A DNA stretch of 64,000 nucleotides from Gemmatimonadaceae bacterium (lineage in GTDB: Bacteria; Gemmatimonadota; Gemmatimonadetes; Gemmatimonadales; Gemmatimonadaceae): the NCBI GenBank assembly GCA_020852815.1, contig JADZAN010000002.1, forward strand, positions 310,001 through 374,000. Direction: 5' to 3'. The notes under the pieces are model-generated. The model worked only from the letters and a program-made list of their open reading frames with translations, did no database searches and was not told where the DNA came from. Every line of letters begins with the position of its first letter. Position 1 is the first letter of the stretch. Below are positions 7,484-38,926 of the stretch, piece after piece. The translations under genes and the position numbers were made by a program.

Positions 7484-8473
7484 GTGGCTTCTTTCGGCGT
7501 TCCCGACTCCGCTGTCGTTTCGCTTGACGACCTTCGCGCCGCGGCAGGCATTCTGCGCGGAGTGGCGGTTCGCACCCCGCTGTTGCCGTTTGACGCGCTG
7601 AGCGAGCGCACCGGCGCCTCGGTCTGGATCAAGCCGGAAATGCTGCAGCGAGGGGGGGCCTTCAAGTTCCGGGGCGCGTACAGCTACCTCGCTCGGCTGT
7701 CGCCGGAGGCGAGGGCGCGGGGAGTAGTTGCACCGTCTTCGGGGAATCACGCCCAGGCGGTGGCGTATGCGGCGCGCCTCTTCGGTGTCCCGGCCACGGT
7801 GGTGATGCCGACGACGGTCACGCAGGCAAAGCGTGGCGGCGCCGAGCGATTGGGGGCGCGCATCGAACTCGCGGGGACGACGACACGCGACCGCATGGAT
7901 CGCGCGCTCGAACTTGTCGCCGACGAGGGGATGACGCTGGTGCCACCCTACGACGACGCGAACATCATCGCCGGGCAGGGGACGGCGGGGCTCGAGATCG
8001 CCGAAGATCTTCCGCACGTGACGACGGTCCTCGTCCCCGTGGGAGGGGGCGGGTTGAGCGCTGGCGTAGCGGCGGCGATCAAGTACCTGGTGCCGACGGC
8101 GCGAGTGATCGGCGTGGAGCCGTCGGGGGCGCCAAAGCTCACGCGGGCGCGCGAGGCCGGCGAGCCGGTGGTCCTTCCGCAGACGGGGAGCATCGCCGAC
8201 GGGCTGCTGGCGGTGCGCATCGGGACGACGACGTTCGCGCACCACCGCCGGTTCATCGATGACGTGGTGACGGTGGACGACGGCGCGATGTTGGTCGCGA
8301 TGCGCCTGCTCCTCGACCGGGCCAAGCTGGTGGCGGAGCCGAGCGGGGCGATCACGGTGGCGGCGCTGGCGGCCGGGCGCGTGAAGCTTGCAGCTGGCGA
8401 GCGCGTCGTGTGCGTGCTGAGCGGGGGGAACATCGAGTGGGACGGACTGCTGGAGCTGCTGGGGAATGGCTAG
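7484..8473 (+). CDS. threonine/serine dehydratase (threonine ammonia-lyase)
   Basis: This is a fold-type II PLP enzyme that would deaminate threonine to 2-oxobutanoate and ammonia (or serine to pyruvate). Visible landmarks are the Schiff-base lysine in AFKFRGAY, the SSGNHAQ substrate loop, the glycine-rich phosphate-binding GGGGLSAG and the C-terminal SGGN motif. There is no C-terminal ACT domain, so it resembles the short catabolic type rather than feedback-regulated IlvA. Start choice is uncertain: GTG at 7484 matches the family N-terminus (VSLDDLRAAA follows soon after), while TTG at 7433 would add 17 residues; neither has a clear ribosome-binding site. The last 8 bases overlap the diguanylate cyclase gene. 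Confidence 0.85.
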   Translation: MASFGVPDSAVVSLDDLRAAAGILRGVAVRTPLLPFDALSERTGASVWIKPEMLQRGGAFKFRGAYSYLARLSPEARARGVVAPSSGNHAQAVAYAARLFGVPATVVMPTTVTQAKRGGAERLGARIELAGTTTRDRMDRALELVADEGMTLVPPYDDANIIAGQGTAGLEIAEDLPHVTTVLVPVGGGGLSAGVAAAIKYLVPTARVIGVEPSGAPKLTRAREAGEPVVLPQTGSIADGLLAVRIGTTTFAHHRRFIDDVVTVDDGAMLVAMRLLLDRAKLVAEPSGAITVAALAAGRVKLAAGERVVCVLSGGNIEWDGLLELLGNG

Positions 8474-29641: not shown

Positions 29642-30727
29642 ATGAGCATCTCGCGCCGCGACTTCCTCGCCACCACGGCGACCACCGCCGCCGCCCTCGC
29701 CATCCCTGCGTCGCACAGCGACGCACTCCCGTCTTCCCCCAGCGTTCGCTGGGGCGAGCTTTCCCGTCTCCCGTCCGCCCTCCCCATCGTCGTCTCCTCG
29801 GCCAACGGGTTGCGCGGGGTGAAAGTGGCGTACGACCAGATCGTGGGCGGGACCGACACGCTCGATGCGATCATCGCCGGGGTGAACATCCAGGAGCTCG
29901 ATCCCGAGGACCAGTCGGTGGGGTTGGGCGGGCTGCCTAACGAAGAAGGGGTGGTGCAGCTCGATGCGTCGTGCATGCACGGCCCCACGCGGCGCGCCGG
30001 CTCGGTGGCCTGCCTCGAGGACATCGCCACGCCATCGCTGGTGGCCAAGGCGGTGATGGACTACACCGACCACATCATGCTGGCGGGGCAGGATGCGCGT
30101 CGCTTCGCGGTCAACATGGGGTTCCGGACGCAGAATCTGCTCACGGAGAAGAGCCGGCAGGACTGGCTGCGGTGGAAGTCGCGGCTCAACAAGCGCGACT
30201 TCTGGCTCGATCACGACGACGACATCCGCATCAAGTACACGCACGGCACCATCAACATGAACGCGGTGAGCGCCGCGGGCGACATTTCCTCGGTGACGAC
30301 GACGAGCGGGATGGCCTACAAGGTTCCCGGGCGCGTGGGCGACTCGCCGATCATCGGGGCGGGGCAGTACTGCGACAACACCGTGGGAGCAGCCGGCTCC
30401 ACGGGGCGCGGCGAGGCGAACATCAAGGTGTGCGGCGCCTTTCTCGCCGTAGAGTTCATGCGCAACGGCATGTCGCCCGAGGCGGCGTTGCTCAAGGTGT
30501 GCGAGCGCGTGGTGGCCATGACCGAGCGTCGCCTCCTCGACGAGCGCGGACGTCCGTACTTCGACCTCAACTTCTACGCGGTCACGAAGGATGGGCGCTA
30601 CGCGGGTGTGTCGGCGTACGAGGGGAGCACGTTTGCCGTGTGCGACGACAAGGGGGCGCGACTGGAGACTTGCGCGTACCTCTACAAGTCGAGCGAGCGC
30701 CCCAAGGCGGTGCCTGACGACGCCTGA
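29642..30727 (+). CDS. Tat-exported glycosylasparaginase / isoaspartyl peptidase family protein
   Basis: This 361-residue N-terminal-nucleophile hydrolase would cleave N4-(beta-N-acetylglucosaminyl)-L-asparagine or isoaspartyl bonds. The N-terminus SRRDFLATT is a Tat motif. GLGGLPNEEGVVQLDA matches the family alpha-chain. The self-cleavage and nucleophile position is the threonine in THGTINMNAV (H-D/G-T-I context), and GAGQYCDN-x-GAAGSTGRGE is the substrate-binding segment of the beta-chain. Export by Tat implies folding, and perhaps autocleavage, before crossing the membrane. With the preceding isomerase it suggests use of glycan-linked asparagine or amino sugars outside the cytoplasm. Confidence 0.88.
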   Translation: MSISRRDFLATTATTAAALAIPASHSDALPSSPSVRWGELSRLPSALPIVVSSANGLRGVKVAYDQIVGGTDTLDAIIAGVNIQELDPEDQSVGLGGLPNEEGVVQLDASCMHGPTRRAGSVACLEDIATPSLVAKAVMDYTDHIMLAGQDARRFAVNMGFRTQNLLTEKSRQDWLRWKSRLNKRDFWLDHDDDIRIKYTHGTINMNAVSAAGDISSVTTTSGMAYKVPGRVGDSPIIGAGQYCDNTVGAAGSTGRGEANIKVCGAFLAVEFMRNGMSPEAALLKVCERVVAMTERRLLDERGRPYFDLNFYAVTKDGRYAGVSAYEGSTFAVCDDKGARLETCAYLYKSSERPKAVPDDA

Positions 30728-34900: not shown

Positions 34901-35785
34901 TCAGCTCACCGCGATCTCCTTGATCATCCCGTGCGCCAGGTGCGGCTTGCCATCCTTTGCATCGGGAACGAAGCAGACCAGGAGATAGTTGCCCGGCTCG
35001 AGCTCGACCGGGAGGTAGACCACGTCTCCCTTCTTCTGGCCCGTCGTGCCGCCGATGGCCTTCCCGGGCGGCGCCCCCTGGTAGGTCATTCCCCACTTGA
35101 GAAAGTCCTCCTTCGTCCTCCCGGCGTCGAGCCTGGCGATGAACATCTCGTGCGACTGCTGCGATTGATTCTCCAGGCGAATGACGTGCTTTCCCGCCGT
35201 GAGCGGCGTCGACAGCGCCCAGTCGTAGTCGGTCATCTGCACGGTGATGTCGCTGGCCGGCGTGGCAGCCACCGCCGCCGGAGGCGCGGTGACGGTGAGT
35301 GGCTTCATCATCCCCTTCATCAGGTGTGGTACGCGGTCCGGCAAGTCGACGAAGCAGAGGATGGCGTAGCTGCCCGGCGCCAGCTCGCGAATCAGGCGCG
35401 ACTCCCCGCCCGGCTCCGGTGCGTTAGGGCCCACCACGTCCTCGATCCACGGCGGCGGCGCGTTCCCCGGCTTCATCTGCTTGAGCCCCTCGGTGAGGTC
35501 ATGGTACGTCTTGCCCTCGAGGAGGCGCACCAACTGTACGTGGTGCAGTGTCGTGCCATGGTTCACCAGCCTGAGCGACACCAAGCCGCCGGCAATGGTG
35601 TCGGGCGCCTCGTAGGCGAAGTCAGTGGCGACGATCGTCACCTCGGGAGGTGCGGCCGCGGGAGATTCGGCCGAACTGGTCGCTCGATCGGCGGCACTGT
35701 CGGGAGTGTTCTGGTCGCGCTGTCCGCTGCCGCCACAGGCGGCGAGCAGGATAAGCGCAACGGCGAGCGAGAGGGGTCGCTGCAT
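34901..35785 (-). CDS. lipoprotein with two tandem cupredoxin domains
   Basis: The 294-residue protein has a lipobox (LILLAAC) and two plastocyanin/azurin-like domains (about 45-165 and 175-292). Both keep candidate type-1 copper ligands: domain 1 has LHHVQL followed by C-F-V-D...H-L-M-K-G-M; domain 2 has QSHEMF followed by C-F-V-P...H-L-A-H-G-M. It could carry electrons or copper on the periplasmic side of a membrane; the oxidase is 11 kb away. ATG 35785 has GGAG 7 bases upstream; a longer frame adds a charged leader that would break the lipobox spacing. Domain duplication within one chain is unusual for small bacterial cupredoxins. Confidence 0.8.
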   Translation of the reverse strand: MQRPLSLAVALILLAACGGSGQRDQNTPDSAADRATSSAESPAAAPPEVTIVATDFAYEAPDTIAGGLVSLRLVNHGTTLHHVQLVRLLEGKTYHDLTEGLKQMKPGNAPPPWIEDVVGPNAPEPGGESRLIRELAPGSYAILCFVDLPDRVPHLMKGMMKPLTVTAPPAAVAATPASDITVQMTDYDWALSTPLTAGKHVIRLENQSQQSHEMFIARLDAGRTKEDFLKWGMTYQGAPPGKAIGGTTGQKKGDVVYLPVELEPGNYLLVCFVPDAKDGKPHLAHGMIKEIAVS

Positions 35786-35965
35786 GCGAGTACTCCAGGA
35801 GGGAGGGGGCCGCATTCCGCGGGACGCGGACAGGAGTCACGGCGCGTGCATTCTGGGTGCCGTCACGGTGTGTGGCAAGCGTCGGCGACACTCGCCCTAT
35901 CGCCGGGATGAACCGCGTGGCAGAATCGCCGCGACGCCCGCCATACCAACTCCACGAACGCCACC

Positions 35966-36991
35966 ATGGTTGATGCTCGCACGCTGATTGTCCCCCACGC
36001 CGACGTGGAACGCCTCCTCCCAATGCCGGCGTGCATCGACGTGATGGCCGAGGCGCTCGCCGCCACCGCGCGTGGCGACGCGCTTCTCCCGTTGCGACAG
36101 GTCCTTCGACTGCACTCGGGACGCGACGCGTTCGCCGTGATGCCCGCGGTCCTCGGGCGCTCGATCGGCGCCAAGGTCATCACCGTCTTCCCCGGCAACG
36201 ACGCGACGCCTTACGAGTCGCATATCGGCGTGATCCTCTACTTCGACGACACGCACGGGCGGCTGCTGGCCATCATCGATGCGAGTTCGGTAACGGCCAT
36301 CCGCACCGCCGCCGTCTCCGGGCTTGCTACCCGTCTTTTGGCAAATCCCGGTGCCTCGCGCGTCGCCATCCTTGGCGCCGGCGTGCAGGGCATGACGCAC
36401 CTCGACGCCATGCGCGCGGTGCGCGACCTGTCGCACGTGTCGCTGTGGAGCCGCAGTGCCGAACGGCGCGAGCGCTTCGTGCACTGGGCGCGCGTGCATC
36501 GTGGGGTACACGTACAGGCGTGCGCCACCGCCGAGGAGGCCGTGCGAAGCGCAGACATCATCTGCACCGTCACGTCGTCGCGCGAGCCGGTGCTCGAGGG
36601 GCAATGGGTCGCGCCGGGAGCGCACATCAATGCCGTGGGCGCGTCGATCGCGTCGTCGCGCGAAGTCGACACGCAGGGCGTCGAGCAGTCACGGCTCTTC
36701 GTCGACCGTCGCGAGTCGGCCATGCACGAGGCGGGCGACTTTCTCATTCCGCGCGCGGAAGGCGCGATCGACAACGACCACATAATCGGCGAGCTCGGCG
36801 AGCTCCTCCTGGGACGTGTCACCGGTCGCACCGATCCCGCGCAGCGCACGCTCTTCAAGTCGCTTGGCCTGGCCGTGGAAGACGTGGCGAGTGCGCGCTT
36901 CATCTACGAGCGCGCCCTGGCGTCGAACACCGGGATGTGGATCGAGCTGGGCGGCCTGCGCCCCGACGCAGGGGAGCGCGCCGGTGGCTGA
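35966..36991 (+). CDS. ornithine cyclodeaminase / mu-crystallin family protein
   Basis: The 341-residue protein has the two-part family layout: an N-terminal substrate/dimer domain with LRQVLRLHSGRDAFAVMPA and KVITVFPGN, and a Rossmann domain with ILGAGVQGMTHLDA and the DIICTVTSSREPVLEG segment. Family members act on ornithine, alanine, iminosuccinate, ectoine-derived or ketimine substrates with NAD(P). The next gene overlaps by 8 bases and encodes a threonine-dehydratase-like PLP enzyme. That pairing is also found in the beta-hydroxyaspartate cycle (BhcD/BhcB) and ectoine breakdown (EutC/EutB), so simple ornithine cyclisation is not the only reading. Confidence 0.85.
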   Translation: MVDARTLIVPHADVERLLPMPACIDVMAEALAATARGDALLPLRQVLRLHSGRDAFAVMPAVLGRSIGAKVITVFPGNDATPYESHIGVILYFDDTHGRLLAIIDASSVTAIRTAAVSGLATRLLANPGASRVAILGAGVQGMTHLDAMRAVRDLSHVSLWSRSAERRERFVHWARVHRGVHVQACATAEEAVRSADIICTVTSSREPVLEGQWVAPGAHINAVGASIASSREVDTQGVEQSRLFVDRRESAMHEAGDFLIPRAEGAIDNDHIIGELGELLLGRVTGRTDPAQRTLFKSLGLAVEDVASARFIYERALASNTGMWIELGGLRPDAGERAGG

Positions 36992-37955
36992 CGTCGACCT
37001 CCCGCCAATCATTCCGCTCGACGCGATCATGGCGGCGCGCGCGCGGCTGCAAGGCACCATTGTGCGAACGCCAGTCGTGCGCCTGCGTCACGATGCGACG
37101 CTCCCCGATGTGCGCCTCAAGCTGGAGAACCTCCAGCCCATCGGTTCGTTCAAGCTGCGCGGTGCCGGCAACGCCATGCGCGCCATGCCGCGCGGTTCGT
37201 TAGGCGACGGCGTGTGGACGGCCAGCGCGGGGAACATGGCGCAGGGCGTGGCGTGGTGCGCGCGCGAGATGGGCGTCCCCTGCCTCGTCGTCGTTCCCGA
37301 CCACGCCCCCGAGACCAAGGTGCGCGCCGTGGAGCGGCTGGGAGCTCGCATCGTGCGCCGCCCCTTCAACGAGTGGTGGCAGCTCCTCGTCGACCGAGGG
37401 TCGCCGGAGTTCGCGGGGCGCTTCGTGCACCCCGTCTCCGATGCCGAGGTGATGGCCGGCAACGCCACCGTTGCCCTCGAGATCCTGGAGGATGTGCCCG
37501 ACGTCTCGGCGATTGTCGTGCCGTATGGGGGCGGTGGACTGAGCTGCGGCATTGCGTCGGCGGTGCGTCATCTCGCCCCGCACGTGAAGGTCTACGCCGC
37601 CGAAGTGGCGAGCGCGGCACCGCTGGCGCCGGCGCTTGCGGCTGGCGGACCGGTCCCGACGGCGTATGCCCCCTCCTTCGTGGACGGCATCGGCGGTCGC
37701 ACCGTCCTGGCCGAGATGTGGCCGCTGGCGCAGGCCCTCCTCGCCGGATCGCTCGTCGTGTCGCTGGAACAGGTGGCGGCGGCGTGGCGCCTCGTGCTGG
37801 AGCGCAATCGTGTGCTGGCGGAGGGGGCCGGCGCCGCGTCGGTCGCGGCGGCGCTCACCGGAACGGCGGGCGACGGCCCATTGGTGGCCGTTGTGTCGGG
37901 AGGGAACATCGACAGCAGCGTCGTGGTGAAGCTGCTGCAAGGCGAGCTGCCATGA
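36984..37955 (+). CDS. threonine-dehydratase-like PLP-dependent ammonia-lyase
   Basis: The 323-residue fold-type II PLP enzyme starts at GTG 36984 (GGGAG 7 bases upstream), inside the end of the previous gene. The Schiff-base lysine is in GSFKLRGAGN, the phosphate loop is GGGGLSCG and the C-terminus has VSGGN. The loop that reads SSGNHAQ in threonine dehydratases is SAGNMAQ here, a change at the residue contacting substrate, which argues for a substrate other than threonine. It shares little beyond the fold with the dehydratase at 7484. The stop overlaps the next start (ATGA). Confidence 0.85.
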   Translation: MADVDLPPIIPLDAIMAARARLQGTIVRTPVVRLRHDATLPDVRLKLENLQPIGSFKLRGAGNAMRAMPRGSLGDGVWTASAGNMAQGVAWCAREMGVPCLVVVPDHAPETKVRAVERLGARIVRRPFNEWWQLLVDRGSPEFAGRFVHPVSDAEVMAGNATVALEILEDVPDVSAIVVPYGGGGLSCGIASAVRHLAPHVKVYAAEVASAAPLAPALAAGGPVPTAYAPSFVDGIGGRTVLAEMWPLAQALLAGSLVVSLEQVAAAWRLVLERNRVLAEGAGAASVAAALTGTAGDGPLVAVVSGGNIDSSVVVKLLQGELP

Positions 37956-38926
37956 GGCGTGCGGAAGGGATCCTCGGCGCTATCGTGACGCGCGCCGCAC
38001 GCGGGGGGGGCGCGTGCGTGTTGCTGCTGGCGGCTGTGCTCGCGCCCGACAGTTTGGCGGCGCAGGGGAGGTCCACGACCAGGCCGCCGGCGCGCACTCG
38101 CGTCGTCATCCTGGGAACGGGGAACCCCAACGCCGACCCGGAGCGATCGGGGCCCGCGGTCGCCGTCGTCGTCGACGACCGTGCCTACCTCGTGGATGCC
38201 GGTCCGGGCGTGGTGCGGCGCGCGGCGGCGGCGGCGCGCGCCGGAACCGGCGCGCTCGCCGCGGAGCGCCTCGATCTCGTCTTCCTCTCGCACCTGCACT
38301 CCGACCACACCGTGGGGCTCACGGACCTCATCTTCACGCCGTGGGTCCTCGAACGCCCCGGCCCGCTGCGCGTGTTTGGTCCCCGCGGTGTGCGCGAGAT
38401 GACCGACCACCTCGTCGCCGCATTCGCCGAGGACATCGCGGTCCGCATCGAGGGACGCGAGCACGCCAATCGCGAGGGCTACAAGGTGCGCGCCACGGTC
38501 GTCACGCCGGGAATCGTCTACAAGGACGACAAGGTGACCGTGAAGGCGTTCGCCGTCCCGCACGGCGACTGGAAGGAGGCGTTTGGTTACCGATTCGAGA
38601 CGCCCGATCGTGTCATCGTCATCTCGGGAGATACCAAGGCGAGTCGCGCCGTGGTGGACGCGTGCAACGGCTGCGACCTCCTCGTCCACGAGGTGTACTC
38701 CACCGAGCGCTTCGCGACACGCCCCGCGCGGTGGCAGGAATACCACCGCAACGCGCACACATCGACCGTGGAGCTTGCGCGCCTGGCCATCGAGGCGCGC
38801 GCAAAGTCGCTCGTTCTGTATCATCAGCTGTACTGGGGCGCCACCGACGACGACCTCTTGCGTGAAGTGCGCGGCGCCGGTTATCGCGGGCCACTCGCCT
38901 CGGCGCACGACCTGGGCGTCTACTGA
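37952..38926 (+). CDS. exported metallo-beta-lactamase-fold hydrolase, RNase Z-like type
   Basis: The 324-residue protein has an N-terminal hydrophobic signal (LLLAAVLAPDSLAAQG), then the MBL fold: LGTGNPNADPERSGP, the metal-binding HLHSDH, HGDWKEAFGYRF, SGDTKAS with the bridging aspartate, and late histidines in HTST and YHQLYW. The family of exported MBL proteins near RNase Z includes arylsulfatase-like and lactonase-like enzymes, so the reaction is open. A 4-base overlap (ATGA) with the dehydratase shows it is the third gene of the operon starting at 35966. Confidence 0.85.
   Translation: MRRAEGILGAIVTRAARGGGACVLLLAAVLAPDSLAAQGRSTTRPPARTRVVILGTGNPNADPERSGPAVAVVVDDRAYLVDAGPGVVRRAAAAARAGTGALAAERLDLVFLSHLHSDHTVGLTDLIFTPWVLERPGPLRVFGPRGVREMTDHLVAAFAEDIAVRIEGREHANREGYKVRATVVTPGIVYKDDKVTVKAFAVPHGDWKEAFGYRFETPDRVIVISGDTKASRAVVDACNGCDLLVHEVYSTERFATRPARWQEYHRNAHTSTVELARLAIEARAKSLVLYHQLYWGATDDDLLREVRGAGYRGPLASAHDLGVY

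Follow-up and report, generated by a model that had tools for sequence, protein, structure and literature searches.

A conserved couple of an OCD/mu-crystallin-family dehydrogenase and a threonine-dehydratase-fold enzyme in Gemmatimonadaceae: a candidate dehydratase/imine-reductase system

The closest described counterparts of the genes analyzed here are BhcB-BhcD and EutB-EutC, two couples of a fold-type-II pyridoxal 5'-phosphate (PLP) dehydratase with a reductase of the ornithine cyclodeaminase (OCD)/mu-crystallin family. Of the four enzymes of the beta-hydroxyaspartate cycle, one is a dehydratase and another an iminosuccinate reductase (PMC8166194), while the dehydration followed by reduction assigned to EutB-EutC in ectoine degradation was, as of 2018, a biochemically untested proposal (PMC5924519). 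We analyzed a 64,000-nucleotide stretch (the window) from the genome of a Gemmatimonadaceae bacterium (assembly GCA_020852815.1, contig JADZAN010000002.1, positions 310,001 to 374,000; genome of 5.38 Mb, judged 100% complete), in which an OCD-family dehydrogenase gene (hereafter OCD) is followed by genes for a PALP-domain enzyme of the threonine-dehydratase fold (PALP) and for an exported metallo-beta-lactamase (MBL)-fold hydrolase (MBL). OCD and PALP are a real, conserved couple, which we tentatively read as a possible third dehydratase/imine-reductase system alongside the analogous BhcB-BhcD and EutB-EutC. A reading made from the letters of the window alone (the sequence-only reading) had described three overlapping genes, and the coordinates and Pfam domains bear this out: all three lie on the same strand, with overlaps of 8 bases between OCD and PALP and of 4 bases (ATGA) between PALP and MBL.

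35966..36991, + strand: OCD/mu-crystallin-family dehydrogenase gene (OCD), ATG start, 341 aa; Pfam PF02423 (OCD_Mu_crystall), 269 bits
36984..37955, + strand: fold-type-II PLP enzyme gene of the threonine-dehydratase fold (PALP), GTG start, 323 aa; Pfam PF00291, 209 bits
37952..38926, + strand: exported MBL-fold hydrolase gene, RNase Z/PNGM-1-like (MBL), 324 aa; PF12706 (Lactamase_B_2), 74 bits

These open reading frames are real genes, because their proteins are kept at 72-82% identity in a congeneric genome (81-82% for OCD and PALP, 72-78% for MBL).

Distribution of the OCD-PALP couple

The PALP clade was delimited within the order by an unbiased search of 121 same-order genomes, in which orthologues were called at 226 bits or more; 45 genomes carry one, and every other homologue scored 185 bits or less. 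For a GTDB-wide sample, 80 loci of the clade were collected, of which 78 left room to judge the upstream neighbour. At 38 of these 78 the gene immediately upstream of PALP was OCD, in nine phyla when the labels of metagenome-assembled genomes (MAGs) are taken as deposited (Gemmatimonadota, Chloroflexota, Acidobacteriota, Planctomycetota, Actinomycetota, Bacteroidota, Eiseniibacteriota, KSB1, and one MAG labelled Pseudomonadota), and the overlaps between the two genes were mostly of 4, 14 or 17 bases.

Within the order, an OCD orthologue was present in 31 of the 121 genomes, 27 of which also carry the PALP clade where 11.5 would be expected (Fisher p = 3e-11; by genus p = 6e-6); these p-values are indicative only, since related genomes are not independent. 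OCD and PALP are adjacent in 15 of the 27 genomes and without direct adjacency in 12, two of which have a single M16-type peptidase gene between them (L143, 6186-8984; L144, 5188-7848). In five further same-order genomes a divergent OCD (179-187 bits) adjoins PALP. The conservation of the three-gene arrangement, which had been proposed as a check, thus holds for the OCD/PALP linkage.

Identity and active sites of the two enzymes

PALP belongs to the fold-type-II PLP dehydratases, as judged by its PALP domain, the Schiff-base lysine in SFKxRG, an SxGN loop and an SGGN motif, and the best PDB match of its profile is TdcB (2gn0). Within the threonine-dehydratase fold it is a clade of its own, marked by SAGNMAQ and a Trp-Trp pair, which in trees stands apart from EutB, BhcB, hydroxyaspartate lyase, TdcB, IlvA and serine racemase (clade support 100/100); a second PALP type that adjoins clade members at two loci (L053 and L109) is the sister of the clade (support 99/99). 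Against NCBIfam, its best score for threonine ammonia-lyase was 228 bits (cut-off 379), for TdcB it reached 191 bits (cut-off 453), and an authentic threonine dehydratase was rejected, 228 bits standing against cut-offs of 379 and above in the TIGR01127, TdcB and IlvA models. The threonine ammonia-lyases TdcB and IlvA share with PALP the fold, the PLP lysine and an SAGN loop with Ala, whereas PALP has no regulatory domain, carries the clade-specific Met85 and Trp131-Trp132, and scores far under their cut-offs. The window genome has further PALP paralogues, and one threonine-ammonia-lyase-like PALP lies in the window itself (7562-8473), on another branch of the tree and below every curated cut-off.

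The residues considered in the two enzymes are encoded as follows.

36644..36646, + strand: Ser227 codon of OCD, at the site where BhcD, EutC and AF1665 alanine dehydrogenase share an Asp (alignment)
37152..37154, + strand: Lys57 codon of PALP, the PLP Schiff-base lysine of the SFKLRGA motif, invariant in alignments
37224..37244, + strand: SAGNMAQ substrate/cofactor loop of PALP, residues 81-87 (alignments)
37374..37379, + strand: Trp131-Trp132 of PALP, invariant in the 23-member clade set

The sequence-only reading had singled out the loop SAGNMAQ as differing from SSGNHAQ. Of the two differences only Met85 in place of the usual His is unusual; the Ala of SAGN is ordinary, being found in TdcB and IlvA as well. 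Met85 is present in 21 of the 23 members of an unbiased alignment set, and its occurrence in 77 of 77 members of a larger alignment is a biased count, as SAGNMAQG had been the search pattern for those loci. Serine racemase, BhcB and hydroxyaspartate lyase align a Ser with Ala82, and this Ser of the SSGN loop acts as the second base in serine racemase. Pro213 occupies the position of the metal-site Asp of human serine racemase in the alignment; Ala82 and Pro213 instead of the racemase Ser and Asp fit an eliminase, and on these two residues an enzyme of the serine racemase type was rejected.

Trp131-Trp132 is kept in most of the 77-member set and is missing from BhcB, EutB, TdcB, IlvA and serine racemase, the sole exception among the references being a distant relative on a Paraburkholderia plasmid (L128), which has an AMP-ligase-like gene nearby and no adjacent OCD, and gave no clue to the substrate. 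Trp132 aligns with Arg135 of human serine racemase in the HMMER alignment and is placed within a few residues of it by MAFFT; we take Arg135 to be the residue that binds the second carboxylate of malonate. BhcB, unlike PALP, has His and small residues where PALP has Met and Trp-Trp. The pocket of PALP is probably more hydrophobic than that of the hydroxyaspartate enzymes, and its Met and Trp-Trp residues suggest that the side chain of the substrate is less polar than in hydroxyaspartate.

OCD is the sole PF02423 gene of the window genome. In the tree it falls in a clade of its own outside BhcD and EutC, grouped with Delta1-pyrroline-2-carboxylate (Pyr2C) reductase and mu-crystallin, although the bootstrap had not converged and the branching order within the clade is unresolved. 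In a PDB search its profile scored 338 bits against the archaeal-type Pyr2C reductase 6t3e and 281 and 270 bits against mu-crystallin, as compared with 155 bits against iminosuccinate reductase and 132 bits against ornithine cyclodeaminase. The ketimine reductase mu-crystallin (CRYM) and 6t3e are the closest relatives of OCD with a solved structure; Arg44, Lys70, Met59-Pro60 and the FKS(L/V)G motif are common to all of them, and CRYM also has Ser at the Asp site. OCD is nevertheless distant from both in sequence, and its nearest NCBIfam model, PRK06141 (NF004793, Pyr2C/Delta1-piperideine-2-carboxylate (Pip2C) reductase), gives 265 bits against a cut-off of 322, with ten other clade members at 249-277 bits and likewise all under that cut-off. 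We know of a PALP partner for neither CRYM nor 6t3e.

At position 227, the 34 OCD clade members aligned have Ser (23) or Cys (11), and mu-crystallin has Ser, where BhcD, EutC and AF1665 alanine dehydrogenase have Asp. We take the catalytic Asp228 of Pseudomonas ornithine cyclodeaminase to be equivalent to this site. An authentic ornithine cyclodeaminase was rejected on Ser227, in an alignment made without an authentic member of that enzyme, and on 129 bits against a cut-off of 350 in the NF005762 model. Neither PALP nor OCD is thus the authentic enzyme of its fold, a placement that the sequence-only reading had named, together with a lack of conserved linkage to MBL, as speaking against it. 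Where the second Rossmann strand ends, Ser162-Arg163 is like the Asn-Arg of mu-crystallin and unlike the Asp of AF1665 and 6t3e, a resemblance that suggests NADPH as the probable cofactor. Taken from these relationships, OCD is probably a CRYM/Pyr2C-reductase-like imine reductase.

The same pair of folds, a fold-type-II PLP dehydratase and an OCD-family imine reductase in one operon, occurs in both known pathways (annotated control loci L121-L123 and L125), and the two-step logic of BhcB/BhcD is probably the same as here; EutB/EutC are also an adjacent, overlapping pair, for which dehydration and then reduction has been proposed, although with EutB first the gene order is reversed. The window pair itself is nonetheless extremely unlikely to be part of the beta-hydroxyaspartate cycle or of ectoine degradation. 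PALP scores 217 bits against EutB NF005680 and 194 bits against EutB TIGR02991 (cut-off 413 for both) and 168 bits against BhcB NF045641 (cut-off 550), and OCD 143 bits against BhcD NF045643 (cut-off 500) and 145 bits against EutC TIGR02992 (cut-off 472). Approximately unbiased (AU) tests rejected the grouping of the PALP clade with BhcB (p = 0.0006), of the clade with EutB (p = 0.03), and of the window PALP alone with EutB (p = 4e-11), and the OCD clade has Ser or Cys in place of the catalytic Asp of BhcD and EutC. The sequence-only reading had remarked that the aldolase and transaminase partners are not at the locus, and a scan of the window genome found no strict bhcA or bhcC anywhere in it: the best homologues (164 bits against a cut-off of 650 for BhcA, 191 against 690 for BhcC) are unlinked to the pair, while the same models give 733 and 772 bits on a true bhc operon. 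EutA had no match in the window genome and DoeA no convincing one (26% identity and 65 bits at best). The scores, the trees and the lack of partners together refute membership in either pathway; of the likeness to BhcD/BhcB and EutC/EutB that had been pointed out, what stands is a genuine couple of the same kind.

Proposed reaction, companion genes and rival readings

Starting from the fold, the clades, the conserved partnership and the active-site residues, we infer the direction of the reaction, its cofactor, the coupling of the two steps and the class of substrate. PALP would beta-eliminate from a beta-substituted, probably beta-hydroxy, amino acid and yield an enamine/2-imino acid. OCD, drawing on NAD(P)H (probably NADPH), would reduce the imine to an amino acid ahead of hydrolysis, so that nitrogen would be retained and the reactive enamine cleared. 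The chemistry would be that of BhcB-BhcD and that proposed for EutB-EutC, carried out by separate clades on a different substrate. The adjacency in 38 of 78 loci and the co-occurrence in 27 of 31 genomes are a genomic association in favour of such a couple. The closeness of OCD to imine and ketimine reductases would agree with it, as would the kind of partners that OCD keeps. A member of the OCD clade has diaminopropionate ammonia-lyase as its downstream neighbour at four loci (L048, 7037-14280; L150, L152 and L153; 303-376 bits against NF006058, cut-off 276), in three of which (L048, L150, L153) an amidohydrolase follows the lyase, and several operons hold further TdcB-like or threonine/hydroxyaspartate-lyase-like PALP genes. 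Fold-type-II enzymes that produce 2-aminoacrylate include diaminopropionate ammonia-lyase, IlvA and cysteine desulfhydrase (PMC9127364). The common thread of these companions is a PLP lyase that releases an enamine or imine beside a reductase of the imine-reductase type. Elsewhere the operons contain peptidases (M16, S9) or hydrolases of the serine beta-lactamase fold; at L151 and L154, for example, PALP is preceded by an S9 peptidase and such a hydrolase.

Several observations weigh against a dedicated couple. OCD is missing next to PALP at about half of the PALP loci, and four same-order genomes have OCD without PALP. In Anaerolineae, PALP has an enolase-superfamily dehydratase as its fixed neighbour and no adjacent OCD, an arrangement which implies that PALP can act without this OCD; at eight loci of Anaerolineae and other Chloroflexota (L069, L075, L078, L080, L089, L095, L099, L110), PALP starts 0 bases after a sugar-acid-dehydratase-like gene of that superfamily. 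The companion genes point to no single substrate, we know of no characterised member of either clade, and the NCBIfam model nearest to OCD describes a cyclic ketimine reductase, which need not act on the products of PALP.

It is from this last point that a rival reading arises, in which OCD is a Pyr2C/Pip2C reductase that serves the metabolism of proline, hydroxyproline or lysine, and PALP a generic serine/threonine-type dehydratase of the same catabolic operon, with no channelling between them. The top PDB match, the grouping in the tree and the nearest NCBIfam model of OCD all agree with it, OCD-family Pyr2C reductases have been identified through genome-neighbourhood work (PMC4113996), and peptidases are found in several operons. 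However, every OCD member tested is under the PRK06141 cut-off and no hydroxyproline genes adjoin OCD. The one strong proline-racemase-family protein of the genome lies on another contig and has a racemase-type second Cys (PCGTG), so that a trans-3-hydroxyproline route is not indicated; the reading also leaves the strong co-occurrence of OCD and PALP unexplained. We consider this reading possible but unlikely.

A second rival starts from ergothioneine-type genes near the pair. In a Gemmatimonadaceae MAG (L118, 3547-8939), EgtB, EgtD, an EgtA-like gene, OCD and PALP form one tight gene run; at L155, EgtD, an EgtA-like gene and two M16 peptidases lie upstream of OCD, and at L045 an EgtB-like gene lies downstream of PALP. 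PALP could accordingly be imagined as a beta-lyase acting on S-conjugates of cysteine or on thio amino acids like them (e.g., in ergothioneine-type metabolism), with OCD reducing 2-aminoacrylate to alanine. Such loci number only three among more than 100 examined, no egt gene is near the pair in the window, and the broad range of phyla favours a more general substrate, which makes this reading improbable.

For the preferred coupling of elimination and imine reduction, a narrower version can be put forward, in which the substrate of this phylum-wide pathway would be a beta-substituted amino acid whose side chain is bulky or apolar, akin to phenylserine or to an S-conjugate, and the product the saturated amino acid with its nitrogen kept; we regard this specific assignment as rather unlikely. 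In a literature search restricted to open-access papers, no description of this pair, or of such a step in any pathway, was found.

The MBL gene, other neighbours and the meaning of the couple

The product of the third gene has a Sec-type signal-like N-terminus and the metal motif HxHxDH (HLHSDH, residues 114-119). It shares fold and motif with PNGM-1 and RNase Z-like MBL hydrolases but is exported, belongs to a family of its own that is widespread in the order (orthologues in 55 of the 121 genomes), and reaches only 121 bits against the best RNase Z model (cut-off 363). The sequence-only reading had taken it as the third member of the operon, which might release the substrate. For such a unit speak the overlap of 4 bases in the window, the presence of this gene after the pair in two other genomes (G038, with a 32-base gap, and G030, with a gap of about 110 bases), a weak co-occurrence of MBL with OCD (21 of 31 genomes, p = 0.004; by genus p = 0.03), and the recurrence of a hydrolase as third gene, since in two close relatives of the window pair (L093 and L104) a serine beta-lactamase-fold hydrolase stands in place of MBL. 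However, despite the 55 genomes with an orthologue, linkage is confined to three of the 121, namely the window genome (G000) and G038 and G030, its two nearest relatives. MBL was next to the pair in none of the 80 GTDB-wide loci, its co-occurrence with PALP in the 121 genomes was not supported (p = 0.13), and in another genome (G112) the pair lies in the same LeuS neighbourhood without MBL. Synteny and the lack of association with PALP reject MBL as a conserved third member; a functional unit of three genes is very improbable, the idea of substrate release is weak, and MBL is most likely a local addition, a neighbour with its own role.

Two other genes of the neighbourhood recur in relatives. 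A divergently transcribed gene opposite OCD (34901-35815), with no Pfam family, has the same place in G038 and G030, and an Asparaginase_2-family protein with a twin-arginine-like N-terminus (SRRDFL; 29642-30727) is encoded upstream of LeuS also in G030 and G112.

Proteins of either clade reach none of the NCBIfam cut-offs tested; annotation would label them just 'threonine dehydratase' and 'ornithine cyclodeaminase', which the results here contradict. With the couple spread over nine phyla or more, for the most part in genomes available solely as MAGs, a functional assignment would cover a large set of misnamed enzymes. Should the proposed coupling be true, the trapping of imines by a dedicated reductase would be a general alternative to hydrolysis of the enamines that PLP dehydratases release, with BhcB-BhcD and EutB-EutC as two instances of such trapping.

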